22,199 nucleotides of DNA, from the IMG/VR virus record IMGVR_UViG_3300001851_000217, positions 1 to 22,199 of that record. The stretch is one strand, 5' to 3'. Shown one piece after another: positions 1 through 21,670 of this stretch. A program made the position numbers and the translations under genes. The stretch's first letter is position 1. Every line of letters starts with the position of its first letter. The notes beneath the pieces were generated by a model. The model had not been told where the DNA came from and ran no database searches. It saw only the letters and a list, made by a program, of their open reading frames with translations. Origin of the DNA: a virus.

Positions 1-534
1 TTGGATATTGCTAAGGTAATATACACTCATGATACACTATCAGACCTTGCAAAAGTAACAAAGATTCAGAGTATTAATCTAGATGTAGCAAAAGTAGTAT
101 ACACTCAGACAGTGAATACTAACCTAGCAAAGGTAGTATACACTCAAACAGTCAACTTGGATATTGCTAAGGTAGTACAGACACATAAAGCAGATGCTCA
201 CTTCAAAGATACTGATCCAAATGTACCTCATAACAACTTAGTAAACTCATTCTTAAAGAGATTAGGTAAGACTAGAACACACACAACCGATCTAAAGATA
301 AAAGACTTTGATCCAAATGTACCTCATGAGCACACTACTAACTCTGTATTAAAGGTATACATAAAGACCAAACACTTGGAAGTAAAGGTATCAGATAAGG
401 ATAAGAATGTTAAGAGTGGAAGAAAGAGTATAGAAGTAAAGACCAGACCTACACAGAGAGTAGTGAAAACTCCAAAGAAAGGATCTGATGTGAAAACCAC
501 TAACAAACAAAAACGAGTAAAAACAGACTGGTAG
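1..534 (+). CDS. Repeat-containing lysine-rich protein, 5'-truncated (putative virion/fibre protein)
   Basis: The frame is open at the window edge, so the apparent TTG start is probably internal and only the C-terminal part (177 residues) is present. Residues 3-67 hold five 13-residue units of the form [ILV]AKVVYTQTVNxx. A second, longer repeat follows, in which the phrase DPNVPH occurs twice (about residues 72 and 102), each followed by a serine/leucine/lysine-rich stretch. The last 60 residues are very rich in K, T and V with no recognisable domain. Short valine/threonine repeats often form elongated beta structures in fibre or appendage proteins. With a glycosyltransferase and a baseplate-like domain downstream, a virion surface role is plausible but inferred. 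I do not recognise a family. Confidence 0.6.
   Translation: MDIAKVIYTHDTLSDLAKVTKIQSINLDVAKVVYTQTVNTNLAKVVYTQTVNLDIAKVVQTHKADAHFKDTDPNVPHNNLVNSFLKRLGKTRTHTTDLKIKDFDPNVPHEHTTNSVLKVYIKTKHLEVKVSDKDKNVKSGRKSIEVKTRPTQRVVKTPKKGSDVKTTNKQKRVKTDW
7..201 (+). repeat. Five tandem 39-bp coding repeats
   Basis: Five consecutive 39-bp units encode 13-residue repeats inside the first gene. Units three and four are nearly identical at nucleotide level (85-120 and 124-159). The 18 bases at 1-18 recur exactly at 157-174. Period 39 keeps the reading frame, so unit gain or loss would change protein length without a frameshift. Confidence 0.85.
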
Positions 535-8802: not shown

Positions 8803-9153
8803 GTGGTTAAGATTTATATAGATGGTGGTACAAGACACTCCAATATATGCATGGTTGATGGCACTCATGTCGCTGTAAAATATAGGGGTGGTAAGCCAAC
8901 CAATAATGAACTTGAATACCTAGCCCTAATGTATGCACTTGGTTATATTCGTGACAAGTACAAGTGTGCTGATGTAGAAATATGTTCAGATTCTATGCTT
9001 GTAGTAAAACAGATGAATGGTAAATGGAGAGTTACTACTGAATCACTTCTACCACTATGGGAAAAATGTCAATCAATGATGACTAATAAAATAAAAATAA
9101 GATGGATACCCAGAGAGTTTAACCTTGCTGGTCATGTGCTGGAGAAACCTTAA
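8803..9153 (+). CDS. RNase HI-like protein with an altered C-terminal catalytic motif
   Basis: A 116-residue RNase HI fold. IYIDGG supplies D7, TNNELEYLAL supplies E38, ICSDSMLVVKQMNGK supplies D63, and the last segment is RWIPREFNLAGHVLE. RNase HI removes RNA from RNA:DNA hybrids, useful for primer removal. In classical enzymes the last segment reads like PREENxxAD with a fourth acidic ligand; here AG-H replaces A-D, leaving E114 as the only nearby acid. It starts at GTG (8803), with CATAAATA at 8773-8780 about 26 nt upstream. Its 3' end overlaps the convergent RHH gene by 35 nt. Confidence 0.8.
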   Translation: MVKIYIDGGTRHSNICMVDGTHVAVKYRGGKPTNNELEYLALMYALGYIRDKYKCADVEICSDSMLVVKQMNGKWRVTTESLLPLWEKCQSMMTNKIKIRWIPREFNLAGHVLEKP

Positions 9154-9361
9154 CAGGGTAAGTTGGGTGTGCAGTAGAACCAGTATCATTACTGGTTGCT
9201 TTATAGTGATCTAATATTCTTTTAAAGATTACAGAATCACTTTCATACATATCACCGTTTCTAGTCTTCTTAACTAGTTTGGCTAATTTTCTAAACTCTT
9301 CCTTATCAGCCCAACTAATACTGATAGTTGTATGTGAGTTACCAATTTTACGCCTTGCCAT
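9119..9361 (-). CDS. Ribbon-helix-helix (CopG/Arc-like) DNA-binding protein
   Basis: An 80-residue protein with a short beta strand, HTTISISW (10-17), then a helix ADKEEFRKLAKLVKK and a second helix, ESDSVIFKRILDHYK (40-54). This is the order expected for a dimeric RHH transcription factor. The C-terminal 25 residues are polar and low complexity. It is the first leftward gene after the long rightward arm and is divergent from the gene at 9444. Both promoters fall within the 82-bp gap, so it may regulate itself and its neighbour. Confidence 0.65.
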   Translation of the reverse strand: MARRKIGNSHTTISISWADKEEFRKLAKLVKKTRNGDMYESDSVIFKRILDHYKATSNDTGSTAHPTYPVKVSPAHDQQG

Positions 9362-11240: not shown

Positions 11241-11522
11241 TTAGATGATCTCGAACTCATCGTTCCAACCAGCTCCTCGCCAAGTGGAATCGAAAGCTCT
11301 GACCTTCAATGTTGCCTTTCCTTTCAGGGATCTGTCTTTACGTTTCAGTAGAACTTCAACGTCATTATCCCCTGCTTCTGTTTGGAAAGCAATTACAGGA
11401 GAACCGTTTTGGTAGATGCCACCACTAATAAAATGTGCACCATCAACTCTAATTCGTAGAGTTGTTCCTTCTTTAGCTGCGTTTCCCTGTTTTGATGTAA
11501 TGAAACTTGCTGAGTATTTCAT
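11241..11522 (-). CDS. 93-aa beta-rich protein, unknown
   Basis: A single-gene leftward unit with its own promoter (CTTAAATAC, plus 11545-11553) and a poly-T terminator. The protein is a series of predicted strands: KYSASFITS, TTLRIRVDGAHFISGG, SPVIAFQTEAGDNDVEVLLKRKD, KGKATLKVRAFDSTWRG, ending WNDEFEII. There are no cysteines and no signal peptide. The alternating pattern and glycine turns suggest a small beta sandwich or barrel. Its isolated, well-delimited transcription unit and its higher G+C than neighbours (by eye) suggest separate expression, perhaps strong. Function unknown. Confidence 0.6.
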   Translation of the reverse strand: MKYSASFITSKQGNAAKEGTTLRIRVDGAHFISGGIYQNGSPVIAFQTEAGDNDVEVLLKRKDRSLKGKATLKVRAFDSTWRGAGWNDEFEII

Positions 11523-11843: not shown

Positions 11844-12644
11844 ATGTTCTGCATACGCAAAACAATAGAACTTCCGAAGAAAGATTCAGTCATACACCTA
11901 AGACCTTTAGGTGATATTCATTTGGGTAACTTGGGATGCGATGTAGACAAGTATATGAAGAACATCGAGTTCCTAAAAAAACACGATGATTATATTGTCA
12001 TTGGAATGGGAGATTACATTGACAATGTAATGGCATATGCTAATGGTGGTGTTGACAAACGTTGGAATCCAGAAACGATTGACAGACGTATGTTAACAAC
12101 CGAAGAACAAACAGAGACTTTCATAGAATCATGGAAGCCTATAGCCCATAAGACTCTAGGACTTCACGCTGGAAATCATGAATGGAAAACCATTAACCAG
12201 AAAAGATTCATCACAGATTTTTGTAAACCATTAGACCTACCTTATATGGGTAGACTTGCATACACAAGTTTAACATTTGAACACAAAGGCAAGGAAATCA
12301 GAAACTACCTCATACTATCAATGCATGGGGGATACTCTGGTATTCAAGCAGGTGGTGCTGTCAACAGAATGAAAGCAATCACTGGTGACTTTGACTGTGA
12401 CTTGGTACTGATGGGTCACAACCATGATACATGGGTAAGACCAATAGTAAGAACAGGTTATGACAGAAAACATAACGTACCTGTAGAGAAGAAAGTTCTC
12501 ATGGGTAATACAGGAACATTCCTAAGAGGATATGAAAAGGGCGTAGATAGTTATGTGGAAATCAATCCTAAAGAAGCGAAGAGGGTTGGCACAATCACAA
12601 TAACATTCGATCCATACAAAGGAGACTTGTTCGGTCATGACTAG
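11844..12644 (+). CDS. Calcineurin-like metallophosphoesterase
   Basis: A 266-residue binuclear metal phosphoesterase with all five motifs: GDIHLG (23-28), GDYID (56-60), GNHE (110-113), the HGG histidine (H161) and GHNHD (191-195). Family members hydrolyse phosphodiesters or phosphomonoesters, including Mre11-type nucleases; the motif spacing here is that of a compact single-domain enzyme without the Mre11 capping region. It may act on viral or host nucleic acid or nucleotides. The gene overlaps the downstream wHTH gene by 8 nt, indicating co-expression. The substrate cannot be inferred. It begins with a leaderless ATG. Confidence 0.85.
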   Translation: MFCIRKTIELPKKDSVIHLRPLGDIHLGNLGCDVDKYMKNIEFLKKHDDYIVIGMGDYIDNVMAYANGGVDKRWNPETIDRRMLTTEEQTETFIESWKPIAHKTLGLHAGNHEWKTINQKRFITDFCKPLDLPYMGRLAYTSLTFEHKGKEIRNYLILSMHGGYSGIQAGGAVNRMKAITGDFDCDLVLMGHNHDTWVRPIVRTGYDRKHNVPVEKKVLMGNTGTFLRGYEKGVDSYVEINPKEAKRVGTITITFDPYKGDLFGHD

Positions 12645-12957: not shown

Positions 12958-13107
12958 ATGTTCATAAATATCTGCTGGAAAAAAGATAACAGCGTTATGA
13001 AATCACTCATGCCTATTGATAAGGCGAGTAAACTTGTACAGAAATTAGAGAGTCAAGGTATTAAAACTTGGTTTGAATTAGAAACTCCTACTCTGTTACA
13101 ACAATAA
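12958..13107 (+). CDS. 49-aa hypothetical protein
   Basis: ATG at 12958 to TAA at 13105-13107. A TATA-like TTTTAAATA (12925-12933) is centred 29 nt upstream, slightly far but acceptable. The product has a hydrophobic start (MFINICWKK) and a plausible helix MPIDKASKLVQKLESQGIKTWFEL, then TPTLLQQ. A terminator like that after 9848 follows the stop exactly, which supports a real transcription unit. An internal ATG (M14 or M18) could give a shorter form. No family recognised. Confidence 0.45.
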   Translation: MFINICWKKDNSVMKSLMPIDKASKLVQKLESQGIKTWFELETPTLLQQ

Positions 13108-13124
13108 TCCTCTTTTTATTTTTG
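13108..13124 (+). terminator. T-rich terminator, same type as at 9849
   Basis: After TAA the sequence reads TCCTCTTTTTATTTTTG, nearly the same as at 9849-9865 and in the same position relative to the stop codon. Confidence 0.5.
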
Positions 13125-13131
13125 AATTTAG

Positions 13132-13170
13132 CTATGCGTATAGTACGCAGTATGCGTAGTATGCGTATAT
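13132..13170. repeat. Array of four TRCGYA boxes at exact 9-bp spacing (putative RHH binding array)
   Basis: Hexamers TGCGTA, TACGCA, TGCGTA and TGCGTA start at 13135, 13144, 13153 and 13162. Each unit is 9 bp: TGCGTATAG, TACGCAGTA, TGCGTAGTA, TGCGTATAT. The second box is inverted, so boxes 1-2 and 2-3 each form a perfect 6-bp dyad around 3 bp. The first box lies within CTATGCGTATAG (13132-13143), identical to the reverse complement of 16576-16587 in the RHH-MCM-RadA promoter. The array lies in the 74-bp space between two convergent genes, after a terminator, so it is not an obvious promoter element. An origin iteron set or a centromere-like partition site is possible. Confidence 0.7.
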
Positions 13171-13181
13171 CAAAAACTCGC

Positions 13182-13283
13182 TTACATACTTTTATTATTC
13201 ATTCTCTGTGCAAGGCAAATCTGACTATGGCAAAATATGTGTTCATGAGATTCTAAAATCTTTCCACAAGATCTACAATTCAT
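13182..13283 (-). CDS. 33-aa zinc-finger miniprotein
   Basis: ATG at 13283 to TAA at 13182-13184. NCRSCGKI (C3, C6), H13, H15, and FCHSQICLAQR (C18, C23) give a compact zinc site. A minus-strand TATA box (TTATAAATAA, plus 13306-13315) is centred about 27 nt upstream. The gene lies directly downstream of RadA but appears to have its own start site. Confidence 0.6.
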   Translation of the reverse strand: MNCRSCGKILESHEHIFCHSQICLAQRMNNKSM

Positions 13284-13317: not shown

Positions 13318-14292
13318 TTATTCTTCTTCCAAGTCAGAGATACCTTTGGCATCTAGGATATATTCACCGTCTGCTTGTGGATATTCTGGACTATCTATCA
13401 TTCTTGCTATCCTTTTCTTACCCGATTTCTTAAAGTACATTCTATGAGTACTTGCATGACCTACAACGTTACCCCCAATAGGTTTTATTGGATCTCCAAA
13501 CATGGTAGATGGATCAGATTGTACTTGGTTAGTAAAGATAACCGTGCATTTGAAGTAATATGTTATGTTCTTTAGGTGAGTCATGAGCCTTTTTATCTGG
13601 TTTTGTCTGTCTGCAAGCGTGCCTCTACCCAAATACTCCTCCCTAAATTGCCCAATAGCACCGTCTACTATAACCAATCTAGGTTTAAAACTTAGCATAG
13701 TTTCTGATAGATTATTAACAGTGCCCATGAGTAACTCTGTATTAGGTGTGTAATAATACTTGATTCTAGAGAGCATTGGCTTTGCTTGTTCTTTATCTTC
13801 TACATATCCTCTTGCTTTAAGTATCTCAAAGATTCTACTTGGTCTAAATGTATCTTCACAATCAATCCATATCACATTCATATCCTGTCGTATGGCTTCT
13901 ACTGTAAGTGAGTTACAGAACTGAGTTTTACCACTACCGAACTCACCATATACCTCATAGGTAGCCTCTGGTTTTACACCACCACCCATAAGTCCGTCTA
14001 CTTCTTTACAACAAGTTGCAAGTGTTGGATAGTTCTCTTGATATTCCATAAGTTCTACTGTATCCATGTCGGACTTTCTTATTATATTATTATCCTCTAA
14101 AATTTTCTGTGCATTGAATGACCATTGGTCTGCCTTGTCTCTACCTACACCTGTAATCTCTGCAATCTCAGCAGAACCTCTTACACAAATATCAAGTATG
14201 GTCTTTACTCCAAACGCTACGAGTTTCTTTTCTGTAACAGAGCCTACACCATCTAACTGTGAAACATTTAAATTAATTTCTTCTTGACTCAC
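13318..14292 (-). CDS. radA: RadA/Rad51-type recombinase
   Basis: A 324-residue archaeal-type recombinase for homologous strand exchange. The N-terminal helix-hairpin-helix domain (about 10-65) contains LDGVGSVTEKKL and ITGVGRDKADQW. The ATPase core has Walker A GEFGSGKT (116-123), Walker B LVIVD (206-210), loop L1 REEYLGRGTLADRQ, and loop L2 between NQVQSDP and GGNVVGHASTHR. After Walker B the virus has G-A-I-G in place of the S-x-x-x seen in cellular RadA, a divergence typical of viral copies. GTG start; the GTGA overlap with the MCM stop implies coupled translation. It would serve viral replication, recombination and genome repair. Confidence 0.93.
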   Translation of the reverse strand: MSQEEINLNVSQLDGVGSVTEKKLVAFGVKTILDICVRGSAEIAEITGVGRDKADQWSFNAQKILEDNNIIRKSDMDTVELMEYQENYPTLATCCKEVDGLMGGGVKPEATYEVYGEFGSGKTQFCNSLTVEAIRQDMNVIWIDCEDTFRPSRIFEILKARGYVEDKEQAKPMLSRIKYYYTPNTELLMGTVNNLSETMLSFKPRLVIVDGAIGQFREEYLGRGTLADRQNQIKRLMTHLKNITYYFKCTVIFTNQVQSDPSTMFGDPIKPIGGNVVGHASTHRMYFKKSGKKRIARMIDSPEYPQADGEYILDAKGISDLEEE

Positions 14293-16238
14293 GCTTTTCT
14301 ATACGTGCCATCACTATTTAAACGTATCTGGTTGAATCTTTCCCAATTACCAAACATCTTCTTGGCTTCCATAGGTTCAAACCCATTCTCAATTAACTTC
14401 TTCATGAACTCTATTATATTCACGCTACCATTTTCATCTTCACACTCACTCCAGATTTTATCTGCAAGTTGTTGCTTAGTTTGTCTGGTAGTACCAGTAA
14501 GTATAGTCTGTCTATTACCAGAATTCATCGTGAGATTGAACGAGTTATACATAGATTCAATAAGTGATTTTACAGTCAACACATCATCCAATTCTACAAA
14601 GTCCTTCAATCGTAACTTGGCTAATGCATATGATAATCTAATCAAAGCCTCTAGCTGTCTTACACCTACTGGTAGTTCATCATTACTTGATACCGCTCTC
14701 ATCTGGTTATAGATTTTTATGATTTCGTTTTTCACATCATCATTTATTCTAGGTGATTGCTGTCTTGCCAAGTTCAATAGTTTCTTCAACAACTCTTCAG
14801 ATAAACTACATTCTTTTTTACCTGTACTTGTAGACTCAAATGAATCTATGATATGAGTAGCCTTCATCATGTCTTCAGTGACATTAACTGTGTCTCTTAT
14901 CAACCATATCAAATCGAACCTTGACAATAGTGGTACAGGTATATCTACATTATCTCTAAGTGTGCTATCTGGATCATATGCCCCATACTTCGGGTTAGCC
15001 GCGGCTAATATGGTAGTCTTTGTAGGTAAAGTTAATACTATACCAGCCTTGGCTACTGAAGCTGTCTGTTGTTCCATAGCCTCATGCATGGCACTCCTAT
15101 CATCCTTATTCATCTTATCAAATTCATCTATCATGGCAAAGCCATTGTTACATAAAGGTAATACCCCTGCCTGTGCAACAAATCTATCGTTAATTTTTAC
15201 AACGGCTATCGTAAGACCCGCTGCAGATGTACCTCTACCAGATGTATAGATAGACTTCTTGGTAATCTTCTTTGCATACTTTAATAATTCAGATTTTGCC
15301 ATTGATGGGTCACCAACTAGAAAGATATTTATATCTGAACGTTTGGTACTCTTAACACCACCAACAAGCTGTAACAATATGGATAGTTTTATGTCACTCA
15401 TTCCATATATGTTAGGGGCAAAACTATTAACCAGATTGTCAAGATATGTTTTCTCTTTTGCCATAGTCCTAAACTGACTCTCTTCTTGTTCTGTTGGCAT
15501 TACATCTTCCTCTTCTTCCAAGTTGTTTATTGATAGTACATCTATGTATACATCATTCTCATTAGTCTCAGAATTTATAATAGACCTAAAGATACCAGTC
15601 ACTCTTTTCTTTTGACCAACATAAGATGTACTTACATCACTACCATATACCTTACCTGTAAGAACAACTGGAGAACTATGTCTTGCTTTCTCTAATGGCT
15701 CTTGAAAGAATAAAGTCTGAACGTCATCAGTCTGTATTTGATTAGCACTGATAGACATTTTCGCTTTCTTACATGGTGGATTAGAACAGAATGCTATTGG
15801 TATTTTCTTTTCAAAGTTACACTTAACTTCTTCCTGACCAAAGCATGAAGGACATGTAGCCAAAGCCTTTTTAATATATGTTTTCGGTGAATCAGTTGCA
15901 GATATTATACAGTCAAATGTTATTACTGTATTCTCAAACTTTGAATTTATATCATGCATCTCTACTGGTGTTTTACCAATCAGTTTAATATCCAACTGAC
16001 CAAATACTTGGGGTATATTGAATGTGGTATATTGTTCTTCTAGCATACGGAATATTGCTGACTTTACTGCATCCTTAAATCCATCAGTATTCATTACAAA
16101 CAAGTCAACAAAATCAGGACTCTCAACATCTAATGTATATACACTATTTGGTTTTAATCCAGATACTATCTGTGCATGTTTACGCTGACATAATTTTTCA
16201 TATATTGCATCAACATATGCCGAGTCTGTGTATTCCAT
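14289..16238 (-). CDS. mcm: MCM replicative helicase
   Basis: A 649-residue archaeal MCM, a 3'-5' hexameric helicase for DNA replication. The N-terminal domain has a zinc site (C129, C132, C151, C156). The AAA+ core carries Walker A GDPSMAKS (309-316), Walker B FAMIDEFD (367-374), sensor 1 AAANP (412-416), the arginine finger in LLSRFDL (437-443) and a sensor 2-like GVRQLEALIR (R527). The C-terminus from about 580 resembles the usual winged helix. Length and motifs are complete, so it should be active. It begins 1 bp after the RHH gene and ends overlapping radA, in a compact replication operon. No primase or polymerase is present in this window. Confidence 0.95.
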   Translation of the reverse strand: MEYTDSAYVDAIYEKLCQRKHAQIVSGLKPNSVYTLDVESPDFVDLFVMNTDGFKDAVKSAIFRMLEEQYTTFNIPQVFGQLDIKLIGKTPVEMHDINSKFENTVITFDCIISATDSPKTYIKKALATCPSCFGQEEVKCNFEKKIPIAFCSNPPCKKAKMSISANQIQTDDVQTLFFQEPLEKARHSSPVVLTGKVYGSDVSTSYVGQKKRVTGIFRSIINSETNENDVYIDVLSINNLEEEEDVMPTEQEESQFRTMAKEKTYLDNLVNSFAPNIYGMSDIKLSILLQLVGGVKSTKRSDINIFLVGDPSMAKSELLKYAKKITKKSIYTSGRGTSAAGLTIAVVKINDRFVAQAGVLPLCNNGFAMIDEFDKMNKDDRSAMHEAMEQQTASVAKAGIVLTLPTKTTILAAANPKYGAYDPDSTLRDNVDIPVPLLSRFDLIWLIRDTVNVTEDMMKATHIIDSFESTSTGKKECSLSEELLKKLLNLARQQSPRINDDVKNEIIKIYNQMRAVSSNDELPVGVRQLEALIRLSYALAKLRLKDFVELDDVLTVKSLIESMYNSFNLTMNSGNRQTILTGTTRQTKQQLADKIWSECEDENGSVNIIEFMKKLIENGFEPMEAKKMFGNWERFNQIRLNSDGTYRKA

Positions 16239-16239
16239 T

Positions 16240-16569
16240 TTATAACCTCTTGTTTACCTCTATGTTGATAAGGTTACCTAGTTGTACTATTCTGGTGTGA
16301 ACTCGTTTGAAATTCTCAACATCTAATCCATGAATCTCTCTCTGCCAATCACCCATTGGTGCTAACAAATGAAGATAATTAGCCTCGACATTCTCATCAG
16401 TAACTAATCGTTTTCTATCACCATTATTTTTTCGGAGATATTCATTCATCGCATGAGCAACAAATGTACTAAACGATAGATTGTTTGGTCGCAGTTTGTC
16501 GAAATCTTCAAAAATCTTTCGTACATCACTGCTTATGTATAGATTAATTTTACCTTTGAATTTTGGCAT
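16240..16569 (-). CDS. Ribbon-helix-helix regulator, first gene of the mcm-radA operon
   Basis: A 109-residue protein. A short strand (KFKGKINLYISS, 3-14) is followed by a helix DVRKIFEDFDKL, a turn with NNLSFS, and a second helix STFVAHAMNEYLRKN (34-48), the RHH order. The C-terminal 60 residues form an extra helical part (NYLHLLAPMGDWQREIHG, then VHTRIVQLGNLINIEVNKRL), possibly for oligomerisation. It is separated from mcm by 1 bp, so they are co-transcribed. Its own promoter contains a near-palindrome between TATA box and ATG, which predicts autorepression. RHH proteins are common archaeal-virus regulators and also partition adaptors; which role applies is not decided by sequence. Confidence 0.7.
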   Translation of the reverse strand: MPKFKGKINLYISSDVRKIFEDFDKLRPNNLSFSTFVAHAMNEYLRKNNGDRKRLVTDENVEANYLHLLAPMGDWQREIHGLDVENFKRVHTRIVQLGNLINIEVNKRL

Positions 16570-16575
16570 GTAAGA

Positions 16576-16587
16576 CTATACGCATAG
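16576..16587. promoter_or_regulatory. Putative operator, near-palindrome CTATACGCATAG
   Basis: A 12-bp imperfect palindrome (CTAT-R-CG-Y-ATAG) starts 7 bp upstream of the RHH ATG (16569) and ends before the TATA box. An RHH dimer bound here would block initiation. The identical sequence in the opposite orientation is at 13132-13143. Confidence 0.6.
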
Positions 16588-16591
16588 TGGA

Positions 16592-16599
16592 TTATAAAG
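16592..16599 (-). promoter_or_regulatory. TATA box of the RHH-mcm-radA operon
   Basis: CTTTATAA on the minus strand is centred about 26 nt upstream of ATG 16569, squeezed between the HNH gene's stop (16601) and the operator. Confidence 0.55.
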
Positions 16600-16600
16600 G

Positions 16601-16918
16601 TTACTGAGAATCTTTGACCAGCTTAATTAACCTTTCGAGGTTTTCTGGTTTGAATCTCTTCAACATCTCAACAGACTGATGATGTTTTTTACATAATAGA
16701 GCAAATCTATTAGGATCGCTTTTGATTACAGGTAAAACATAAAGATTATATGACCAAGAATCTTTAAAGTCAGACCAGATTTTGTCACTATTTAAATACT
16801 TTTTATGATGGAATAGAAAATACTTGCCAAATTTTTTACCACATACATAACATTTACCATCAAACTGTGGCATGAATGCGACTTCCCTTTTAAGTTTGTC
16901 GATTATTTCCTTCTTCAT
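16601..16918 (-). CDS. HNH-type endonuclease-like protein
   Basis: A 105-residue protein with the ordering of a zinc-containing HNH fold: CYVCGKKF (C23, C26), LFHHKKY (H37, H38), N70 in SDPNRFALLC, and CKKHH (C76, H79, H80). The paired histidines and the N-x5-C-x2-H-H ending match the beta-beta-alpha-metal nuclease core with a structural zinc. It could be a free-standing (homing-like) endonuclease, a packaging-associated nuclease or a repair enzyme. The minus-strand TATA GTTTATTAAT (16941-16950) is centred about 27 nt upstream. Tailed phages often carry HNH beside packaging genes, but here it is beside the replication operon. Confidence 0.7.
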   Translation of the reverse strand: MKKEIIDKLKREVAFMPQFDGKCYVCGKKFGKYFLFHHKKYLNSDKIWSDFKDSWSYNLYVLPVIKSDPNRFALLCKKHHQSVEMLKRFKPENLERLIKLVKDSQ

Positions 16919-18412: not shown

Positions 18413-18669
18413 TTCTTACCCTCACAATCATAACAGATTCCCTGTGGTGCTTCTATCTTTGCTAGAAACCTTCCACACTTAGAACATTCAGCATGATCTG
18501 GTATTATGTTTTTACTTGTTTCCTTTACTATTTCACAAGAACGATAATACTTTTTCAAGTTATCAGTATCTCTTTTTTGTAGTTCTTCCTCTGTTGATAG
18601 TGAGGCTCTTATGAATATCTGTTTCTCAATACCCATAATCTTCTTTATTAGTTTGTTTTTCTCATTCAT
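18403..18669 (-). CDS. 88-aa helical protein with C-terminal zinc ribbon
   Basis: Helical first 60 residues (KNKLIKKIMGIEKQIFIRA; TEEELQKRDTDNLKKYY). They are followed by a zinc ribbon with ECSKCGRF (C62, C65) and ICYDCEGKKW (C79, C82). It overlaps the VWA gene by 4 nt (ATGA) and the next gene by 10 nt, implying coupled synthesis. It is probably an adaptor or substrate-recognition protein for the VWA partner, by context only. Confidence 0.6.
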   Translation of the reverse strand: MNEKNKLIKKIMGIEKQIFIRASLSTEEELQKRDTDNLKKYYRSCEIVKETSKNIIPDHAECSKCGRFLAKIEAPQGICYDCEGKKWF

Positions 18670-20387
18670 TGTAGTGCCCTCAATACATTAAACTTGAACT
18701 CTTTAATAACTCTTTCACTTGCATCATTGACATTACTACAATTTATAACCTTTTTGCCAAAGATTTGTTTCATGATTGTATATGGTGAAGTGTTTCTAGT
18801 TCTTGATGATGACCTATCTGATATTAACAAGCATACCATGTTGGGTGTCTTTCGTCTTGCATAAGCATAAGACTTCTTACACATCTTAATCATGTTTCCT
18901 ATTGGTATAAGAAACTGATTACTTCTATACTCTGGTATACCATCAGTTATCATTATCAATAACTTCTTTCTACCCTTCATCTTCATTAGTTTTTCTGAAG
19001 AATATTCTAATGCAAGATGAGTTGGTGTTAGTTTTGACCCACCGATAGTCGCTATCTTTTCTATATCTTTTATACTATCTATGTGTTGTATGCCAACTAT
19101 ACCGTTGCTATCTGATGACCAGACAACTGCACTAAGATTTATGTTATCTATATTTTCTATTGATTTGTATAGAGTCTTCACTAGTGCCCTCACATTATCT
19201 ATCTTATCTAAGAAGTCCATTGACCCACTAGCATCTATTGATAATAGTATTGATAGACCCTTATCTAATTTCTTTGAGACCATTGACTTAGTTCTATCTT
19301 TACCTTCTACCAAGTTCTCAATGTATGTTTCAACATTAACTTCCTCTCCTGTATAATCAATGTCATCTTTCCACTTCTCACTAACTTTTCTGAATAGTTT
19401 GTTAAGACCAAGAGCTAAATCATGATTGTATCTTATCTCAGTCTTTACTGCTTTTCTATCCACATATTTGAACTCTCTTCTTAACTGTGGTTTGATTATC
19501 TGTGCCATTCTCTCTTGTAGTTCTTCTATCTCATATGCCTGTTGTTGCTTATCATCTGAAAGTATCTCTTCAATACTACTACCACTAGCCATCATCTCTT
19601 TTATGTCTTCACCAAAGTCATCAGTCAGTTCCATCTCACTATCATCATGTTGTCTACCAGCATTTTGTATGTCTTGTCTAATATGTTCAGCTGTTCTCTC
19701 ATTACCGAATGTCTCTGGGATTATAGGCGTTTCGTTTATGAGTTCATAGTTTCTCTTAAACCATTCATCTAGTATGGGCTTTAGAATGACCATCATCTTT
19801 AATGCCCCCCACTTACTAGTGCCTTGCACATTCTTTATAACACTTGAAATTATTTCCTTATGTTCATTAGGAACTAGTTCAGGTCTTACGAATCTTTCTG
19901 CTAATAACCATTCAATAGGACTATCTGCATGTTGCATATCTTCACCAAGCTTTCGTCTTGTCGTGTTAAACTTCTTTATGTAATTTCGCCATAGATAATT
20001 AGCTACATAGTATTCTATTCTCTGGTCTTCTATCACATTAAAACATGAGAAGTAATAAGAGTATAGTCTCTTAACTAATGGCGTTGTCCCATCATTATAT
20101 TTGAATTCTTTTACCCATCTATTTAATAACTTCTTACATGCACTCATAGGTGTCTCACCTAGTATGTGTCCACACTCATGAGCTAACGCTGTATACTTGT
20201 CAATGTTTGGTATTGCTGGCGTAGCTATATTAATAGTAAAAATGTTGGGGGTTTCGATAGTATTCTTTACATAGTTTTCACCACTAAAGAATGTTATACC
20301 GACCTTACAATCCTTTAGATACTCTACAATATCTAGAACACTTCTCATCATTTCTTTATCTGAGAGTATTTCTCTATCTCGTGCCAT
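18666..20387 (-). CDS. CobT-like protein with metallopeptidase-like N-terminus and VWA domain
   Basis: A 573-residue protein with three parts. The N-terminal part has AHECGHILG (H70, E71, H74) and NVIEDQRIEYY (E120), the HExxH plus downstream E pattern of the peptidase-like half of CobT-like proteins. An acidic, helical linker runs through about 245-300. The C-terminal VWA domain has the MIDAS residues DASGS (D385, S387, S389), T454 in SKLTPTH and ITDGIPE (D482). VWA proteins of this type work with MoxR/CobS AAA+ ATPases to remodel or metallate a target. It directly follows the AAA+ gene (TAG then ATG, no gap). No CobN-like large chelatase subunit is present, so cobalamin synthesis is unlikely; the target may be a viral or host protein. 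Confidence 0.8.
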   Translation of the reverse strand: MARDREILSDKEMMRSVLDIVEYLKDCKVGITFFSGENYVKNTIETPNIFTINIATPAIPNIDKYTALAHECGHILGETPMSACKKLLNRWVKEFKYNDGTTPLVKRLYSYYFSCFNVIEDQRIEYYVANYLWRNYIKKFNTTRRKLGEDMQHADSPIEWLLAERFVRPELVPNEHKEIISSVIKNVQGTSKWGALKMMVILKPILDEWFKRNYELINETPIIPETFGNERTAEHIRQDIQNAGRQHDDSEMELTDDFGEDIKEMMASGSSIEEILSDDKQQQAYEIEELQERMAQIIKPQLRREFKYVDRKAVKTEIRYNHDLALGLNKLFRKVSEKWKDDIDYTGEEVNVETYIENLVEGKDRTKSMVSKKLDKGLSILLSIDASGSMDFLDKIDNVRALVKTLYKSIENIDNINLSAVVWSSDSNGIVGIQHIDSIKDIEKIATIGGSKLTPTHLALEYSSEKLMKMKGRKKLLIMITDGIPEYRSNQFLIPIGNMIKMCKKSYAYARRKTPNMVCLLISDRSSSRTRNTSPYTIMKQIFGKKVINCSNVNDASERVIKEFKFNVLRALQ

Positions 20388-21299
20388 CTAGATTTCAACT
20401 CCGAATATATCTACTATTCTAGATTTGACTAGTTCTCTTTCTTCTAGCTCTGCATATTTAACAAGGACAACTTGTTTCAATGCATACTTCAATACCTGTG
20501 GCTCTTCAAACTTTTTACTCTTAGAGAGTATTCGATAGTGCTCACAGAATTGGTCAATATCTCTAGGCGATAAGACATAATCTATATCACCCTTGACTCT
20601 CAATGCATTTGTCTCTTGTGCTAATTGTAGCAAAGGATTCTTCACAGATTCCTCTGGTATGCCTTCCCAAGATATGATTGTTTGTAGTTGCTTTGATGTT
20701 GGGTATGTGATTATATCACCTATGAATCTACTTCTCAAATCCTCTGTTAGAGAATTAACCCCTGCATATGTTAGTGGATTCATAGTTCCCACTATGGCTA
20801 ACTTACAACCCTCATTGAGCTTGTATAGTTTTCCATTGGCAAATACAGAACGCCTCTTATCTGTTGGTCTGTTCATTAACTTCATGACCTCATGCTCTGT
20901 TGCATTTAGTTCATCAAGATATAGAACACAGAAGCCAAAGTGATTTGCTATCTCATAGGCTAGTGGTAGTATACCTAGTTCAAAGAATGAGCCATTCTCA
21001 TTTATCTGAACTCTACCTATCAAGTCACCTTTGTTTGTTCCATTAGAACAACTGTATTCTAATAGAGCATATCCGTTTTTCCTACATATTGTATGCACCA
21101 TTAGGGTTTTGCCTGTCCCTTTATCACCTTCTATAATATATGGGATTGAAGCTTCTTTGATGTTCATCTCTAGAAGTTTCATCTCATCACCAACTTCTAT
21201 ATACTCACCCCAATTAACAAGGTTTCTTGGGTCGTACTGCTCGAAGTTTATAGTCTGTGTTGGGATTTCTATTCGTGTCTCTTTCATTTTCGATTTCAT
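20388..21299 (-). CDS. MoxR/CobS-like AAA+ ATPase
   Basis: A 303-residue AAA+ motor: Walker A GDKGTGKT (58-65), Walker B LYLDE (126-130), sensor 1 GTMNP (171-175) and an arginine-finger segment LRSRF (188-192). The order is that of the MoxR/CobS/NorQ/CbbQ branch, which partners with VWA proteins. The N-terminal TQTINFEQYDP precedes the ATPase core. The ATG at 21299 is chosen because it overlaps the upstream stop as TAATG; a longer TTG form from 21335 is possible but not needed. Together with the VWA protein it should form a ring-based remodelling machine. Confidence 0.85.
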   Translation of the reverse strand: MKSKMKETRIEIPTQTINFEQYDPRNLVNWGEYIEVGDEMKLLEMNIKEASIPYIIEGDKGTGKTLMVHTICRKNGYALLEYSCSNGTNKGDLIGRVQINENGSFFELGILPLAYEIANHFGFCVLYLDELNATEHEVMKLMNRPTDKRRSVFANGKLYKLNEGCKLAIVGTMNPLTYAGVNSLTEDLRSRFIGDIITYPTSKQLQTIISWEGIPEESVKNPLLQLAQETNALRVKGDIDYVLSPRDIDQFCEHYRILSKSKKFEEPQVLKYALKQVVLVKYAELEERELVKSRIVDIFGVEI

Positions 21300-21670
21300 T
21301 ATACATACACCTCTAATATAGTCGTTGCCCCACAAGCTTTAGAAGCACCATGAGAATTCTCAAAGGCGATTCTTATTTCACAACCCTCTAACTTAAATTC
21401 GTTAGTAAAGGTTATAAGACCTGTGGCTACATCTTGTACGCAGATAGGCATTCCTGTCTGCTTCAATGTTTTCTTATACCATATCCTATACTTAAGCGTT
21501 TTGGTTTGATTTAATGCCTTGACAACTTCATCTCTATTGTATGTCACTAGGTCGCTTATTATTTCTTTACGATAGTGTTCTCTTACAGCATCTATCATAG
21601 CTTCCTCGTGATTCTCTATACAATACTCAATGGCATCTTCTTTTGGCACATAGTCACAACTCAACATCAT
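21299..21670 (-). CDS. 123-aa protein upstream of the AAA+ gene, unknown
   Basis: The N-terminal half is helical (AIEYCIENHEEAMIDAVREH; RDEVVKALNQTKTLKYRIW). The C-terminal half is beta-rich (GMPICVQDVATGLITFTNEFKLEGCEIRIAF) with four cysteines not in CxxC pairs. It starts in an ATGA overlap with the zinc miniprotein and ends in a TAATG overlap with the AAA+ gene, which points to coordinated production. A role with the AAA/VWA machine is suggested only by this position. Confidence 0.6.
   Translation of the reverse strand: MMLSCDYVPKEDAIEYCIENHEEAMIDAVREHYRKEIISDLVTYNRDEVVKALNQTKTLKYRIWYKKTLKQTGMPICVQDVATGLITFTNEFKLEGCEIRIAFENSHGASKACGATTILEVYV

Follow-up and report, generated by a model that had tools for sequence, protein, structure and literature searches.

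A phased box array as a putative target of the RHH protein encoded with MCM and RadA in tailed viruses probably infecting Marine Group I Thaumarchaeota

An array of four six-base boxes in this viral DNA is very likely bound by the RHH protein whose gene heads the viral RHH-mcm-radA operon. This reading comes from comparative sequence analysis, in which the array carries the same box as the RHH promoter operator, while the box and the recognition strand of the protein switch together among relatives. The region analyzed (the window, 22,199 nucleotides) encodes TerL, MCM and RadA, all identified by Pfam, and also contains a MoxR/CobS-like AAA ATPase (18666-21335, minus strand) adjoining a VWA-domain protein, a pair of the marthavirus type. 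The virus is probably marthavirus-like with a host among the Marine Group I Thaumarchaeota (ammonia-oxidising archaea), the host being assigned by inference. For comparison we gathered from IMG/VR about 70 distinct RHH genes located upstream of MCM or RadA. A scan of genome contigs gave MCM identities of 39% or less among the matches listed, with no provirus or host among them.

The array and the RHH operon

The features relevant to the analysis are as follows.

11844-12644, plus strand: metallophosphoesterase (mpp; Pfam Metallophos), marking the conserved order mpp-(sm49)-array on its upstream side
12958-13107, plus strand: sm49, a conserved small protein of 49 aa, lying next to the array in the window clade and next to RHH in some of the relatives
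13108-13181, no strand: intergenic gap of 74 bp containing the array, with convergent small genes on either side and a T-rich tract before the array on both strands
13133-13169, no strand: four 6-bp boxes (TGCGTA/TACGCA) arrayed in 9-bp phase with mixed orientation, the putative main cooperative RHH-binding site
13182-13283, minus strand: CxxC/HxxxC zinc-ribbon-like protein of 33 aa, convergent with the array (L005 counterpart 54.5% identical)
13318-14292, minus strand: RadA recombinase, 324 aa (Pfam Rad51, 3.1e-53)
14289-16238, minus strand: MCM replicative helicase, 649 aa (Pfam MCM, 4.9e-78)
16240-16569, minus strand: RHH protein, 109 aa, with N-terminal recognition strand KINLYIS, helices at 14-25 and 33-49, and a C-terminal helical domain
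16575-16588, minus strand: single near-palindromic operator of 14 bp, ACTAT(G/A)CG(T/C)ATAGT, located after the TATA-like box and before the RHH start codon; 13 bp of it match the first array box exactly
16590-16598, minus strand: TATA-like box TTTATAATC of the RHH-mcm-radA operon
16601-16918, minus strand: gene for an HNH-like protein, directly preceding RHH in the window clade

The boxes start at 13135 (TGCGTA), 13144 (TACGCA), 13153 (TGCGTA) and 13162 (TGCGTA), exactly 9 bp from start to start, and span 13135-13167, so that the positions and mixed orientation given in the original prediction are correct. First-order shuffling of the window, repeated 300 times, gave 9-bp box pairs at 0.003 per shuffle and never a triple. 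The predicted match of the first box to the RHH operator is present but is 13 bp long rather than 12, with CTATGCGTATAGT (13132-13144) being the exact reverse complement of 16575-16587 at the RHH promoter. The flanking genes do converge on the array, although the nearest of them, encoding 49 aa and 33 aa, are smaller than those noted at first. A terminator had also been placed ahead of the array; T-rich tracts precede it on each strand, but a stem-loop-plus-T scan found no intrinsic terminator, that is, no G+C-rich stem followed by a T run.

The window protein is predicted to have an RHH fold from its sequence pattern and a monomer model. The AF2 monomer places helices 14-25 and 33-49 behind an extended N-terminal stretch, with pLDDT of about 90 there, and the family conserves both a T-x-T-I-S strand motif and an S-x-S before helix B. 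Neither Pfam nor PHROG gave a match to the window protein, and no homologues were found in the phage collection; two other members of the family match VAPB_antitox (best 7.6e-4). Structural matches are weak (CopG in PDB at E=0.47), and Foldseek searches with the monomer returned no significant match, SegB being listed without significance. A second RHH-like protein (MARRKIGNSHTTISISWADK..) is encoded at 9119-9361 (minus strand), and relatives keep it at about 53-76% identity.

An operator in its own promoter is a hallmark of RHH regulators of the SvtR/AvtR type. In the window such an operator lies at 16575-16588 and has the same box as the array; it is found likewise in L004, L043, L044 and L046, and is degenerate in L005. 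RHH most likely represses its own operon through this single copy of the box. The operon edges are rearranged, since the HNH-like gene precedes RHH in the window clade but follows RadA in G012.

Co-variation of array, operator and RHH strand

The window and its relative L004 are 98.57% identical across 12 kb, and only five of 119 100-bp bins contain eight or more mismatches. Two of these five cover the RHH operator and the DNA-binding half of the protein, and one covers the array. The TATA-like box is kept in L004, and the replaced stretch begins directly after it and continues through helix B at 60-78% identity (50-column windows); the array is 73% identical. Operator and array of L004 both have TGTGTATA-type boxes, with TGTGTA in place of TGCGTA, and its RHH strand reads RMNIYISAD. 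An assembly chimera is unlikely because two separate matching joins would be required. The remaining two divergent bins, in a gene at 11241-11522 and at about 11700 (15 and 8 mismatches per 100 bp), lie beside an L004 insertion between convergent genes.

The array is retained at the syntenic place in L003, which has the same array as the window, and in L005, L004 (as TGTGTA), L044, L046 and L043. Loss of the array from close relatives that keep RHH, the outcome that was to count against the original prediction, is therefore not seen. L005 (MCM 74%) has counterparts of both sm49 and the 33-aa zinc-ribbon-like gene, and at the same place has four boxes at 9-bp spacing in a different orientation pattern, which favors a protein array over a fixed hairpin; its array is clear, yet the operator at its RHH promoter is degenerate. 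In L044 and L046 the RHH strand is GRKNIYMS and both operator and array are TGTGTATA, with a looser array spacing in which 27 bp is mixed with 6, 10 and 34 bp. L043 represents a third class, with FNSKTVTIS in the protein and TTAACTTA-type boxes in operator and array alike.

Because a generic 8-mer search of the whole locus for promoter words has too little power in AT-rich DNA, we used in its place an operator-by-array matrix, phase statistics and a Mantel test. The matrix is block-wise by box class, with 8-mer coverage of 24-51 within classes and 0-8 across them, the L005 operator excepted. In distant relatives a second, independent switch separates L093, L106 and L115 from L082, L085, L099, L101 and L138 at MCM identities of 85-91%, pairing ..SKITAIS with TTATATAA and ..KKTTTIS with TTAATTAA, in the operator and the upstream array. 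Across 44 genomes the array correlates with the strand when the rest of RHH is controlled for (partial Mantel r=0.46, p=0.0005, with phylogenetic non-independence only partly removed). Comparative sequence shows a shared change of array, operator and RHH strand.

The same pairing occurs in a distant virus. A blind IMG/VR scan for GTGTGTATAGTGTGTATA returned 59 stretches, of which, besides L004's own contig, one has a RadA (L321, 33% identical). The L321 array consists of four copies of TATACACAC and lies 57 bp before an RHH ORF starting MNRMNIYLTPD, so both the RMNIY strand and the box are those of L004. This RHH is a full-length homologue of the window family, and no other ORF in the 86 pattern-hit loci has an RMNIY-type motif, L005's own RHH excepted. 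The gene order around L321:13581-14282 is RadA, a 104-aa gene, array, RHH, DNA methyltransferase and MCM, the methyltransferase link joining two halves on separate fetched pieces that have no overlapping sequence. The RHH-array module therefore recurs beyond the window's virus group.

Not all similar repeats belong to this module. Of the 27 matches in a TRCGYA-array scan of IMG/VR, 25 are repeats without the query genes, and 9-bp array look-alikes in G010 and G012 are Tyr-rich coding repeats that were set aside. The first open ORF of the window (1-534) has repeats of the AKVVYTQTVN type. At 54-57 kb in G001 there are TGTGTATAC-like words that are not RHH sites, and VYT-coding repeats related to the AKVVYTQTVN type are their probable source.

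Position of the array and alternative explanations

Where enough upstream DNA is available, 34 loci show mpp ahead of RHH, MCM and RadA, in that order and in the same orientation. A significant 9-bp-phased array is present 155-35 bp before RHH in 23 of 44 non-redundant relatives, and the upstream lags peak at 9, 18 and 27; only this non-coding pattern is informative, because a coding control likewise shows peaks, at multiples of 3. The window clade keeps the order mpp-gp90-sm49-array, but the RHH operon is inverted, leaving the array beside sm49 and off any obvious promoter. One operator stays at the RHH promoter, and the array is about 3.4 kb away. That the array was kept and continued to co-evolve after its separation from the operon is the chief reason for proposing a function that goes beyond the RHH promoter.

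There is a distinct possibility that the array serves only transcription control, as a distal high-affinity nucleation, roadblock or titration site by which RHH controls its operon or halts convergent transcription, without a role in replication. SvtR and AvtR, which like the window protein are virus-encoded RHH proteins with an operator in their own promoter, bind distal sites from which they have been proposed to spread to promoters (PMC5569661), and most of the window's relatives have the array 45-120 bp ahead of the RHH start. The main argument for this explanation comes from G013 and G015 (RHH strand GIKSISIS), in which phased TTAGCTAAG arrays precede a late-gene promoter at a syntenic spot (about 43884 in G013 and about 39600 in G015). 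In the window clade, however, the array lies between two 3' ends and far from the RHH promoter, and the zinc-ribbon gene with the nearest promoter is swapped for another small ORF in L043, L044 and L046 while the array is retained. The window protein further differs from SvtR and AvtR in its extra C-terminal helical domain and its coupling to MCM and RadA. Co-diversification of a repressor with its sites is also seen for stoperators (PMC6550527), and in the Cluster A mycobacteriophages, as in these viruses, repressor and non-promoter sites form specificity classes; stoperators, however, are many dispersed single sites oriented with transcription, whereas here there is one phased array per genome, with a single cluster on each contig of the window clade. 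Phased TTAGCTAAG/TTAATTAA arrays distant from the RHH operon are seen in G013, G015 and G014 (about 47566 in G014).

The original prediction also offered a partition or centromere-like site, with RHH as the centromere-binding protein, and this we consider improbable. The parS boxes of plasmid pSM19035 double as operators of the plasmid's own genes, and they resemble the array in being contiguous, short and of mixed orientation, and in being bound by an RHH-type protein. Four or more contiguous boxes are needed by this RHH-ParB (PMC9499535), a number that the window array reaches with four boxes in 9-bp phase, although the plasmid phase is 7 bp. Archaeal SegB, which acts in chromosome segregation in the Sulfolobales, is also an RHH protein (PMC12284271) with palindromic sites at its own promoter, but these are scattered 13-bp palindromes rather than phased and clustered boxes, and the window has no SegA. 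More generally, a ParA-type ATPase (PF13614) was not detected in 13 contigs of the virus group while control genomes were positive, which argues against a ParABS-type centromere, and the window operon instead contains MCM and RadA.

A hairpin-type bidirectional terminator, in which inverted boxes fold in RNA to end both convergent transcripts and share their box with the RHH promoter incidentally, is very improbable: the location between convergent genes suits it and the window plus strand folds better than shuffles (z -3.5), but the fold is weak on one strand (z -1.4 for the window minus strand, -0.7 for the L005 plus strand), the T tracts come before the hairpin and not after it, structures and box orientations are rearranged among relatives, and co-variation with RHH is not predicted. 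A packaging site was also considered and rejected, as the array is not near terL and no evidence points to one.

A possible role in replicon control

We infer that RHH from the operon head binds the array cooperatively as its principal site, and that its dimers would use the N-terminal beta-strand to occupy one box after another at 9-bp intervals. Once assembled there, RHH may mark the spot for loading or licensing of the viral MCM, together with RadA. That the array is a replicon-control site is a tentative proposal, which we nonetheless take seriously; the best overall explanation, combining a cooperative RHH site, autorepression and replicon control, seems to us about evenly balanced between right and wrong. 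Origin recognition is the leading idea for the role of the array, and is possible. In 13 contigs of the virus group, some of them perhaps incomplete, neither Orc1/Cdc6 nor ParA nor PolB gave a match. With MCM as the sole replicative factor identified, the adjacent virus-specific DNA-binding protein is a natural candidate for marking the origin.

Iteron-type origins have a regular array of binding sites beside the gene of the binder, which also acts on its own promoter. The window array is similarly regular, close to the gene of its likely binder and near a replicative helicase, but the protein is RHH rather than a winged-helix initiator, the boxes are in mixed orientation and the origin role is putative. 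GC skew, proposed earlier as a check for an origin, showed no origin-type inflection at the array, and is a weak test for viruses. In G001, G004 and G006 its sign flips in the terminus-like direction at the array or close to it; in the window clade the change is from plus to minus, the pattern of a terminus by bacterial convention. Elsewhere it tracks gene direction, making the test uninformative.

A broader and more speculative proposal, which we think doubtful as it stands, is that in a large group of tailed viruses of Thaumarchaeota RHH takes the place of Orc1/Cdc6 as the origin-recognition factor. It would bind a single phased array, recruit the viral MCM and split the viruses into incompatibility-like classes of replicon specificity, between which the recognition strand would be swapped as one set with operator and array.

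Tailed viruses that presumably infect Marine Group I Thaumarchaeota occur widely, and we found no description of how their replication starts in the literature searched. The conserved RHH-MCM-RadA module and its one co-evolving array provide a defined and testable candidate for a control site. The natural swaps, between the window and L004 and in L321, are ready specificity controls and give the outline of a recognition code relating RHH strand to box.
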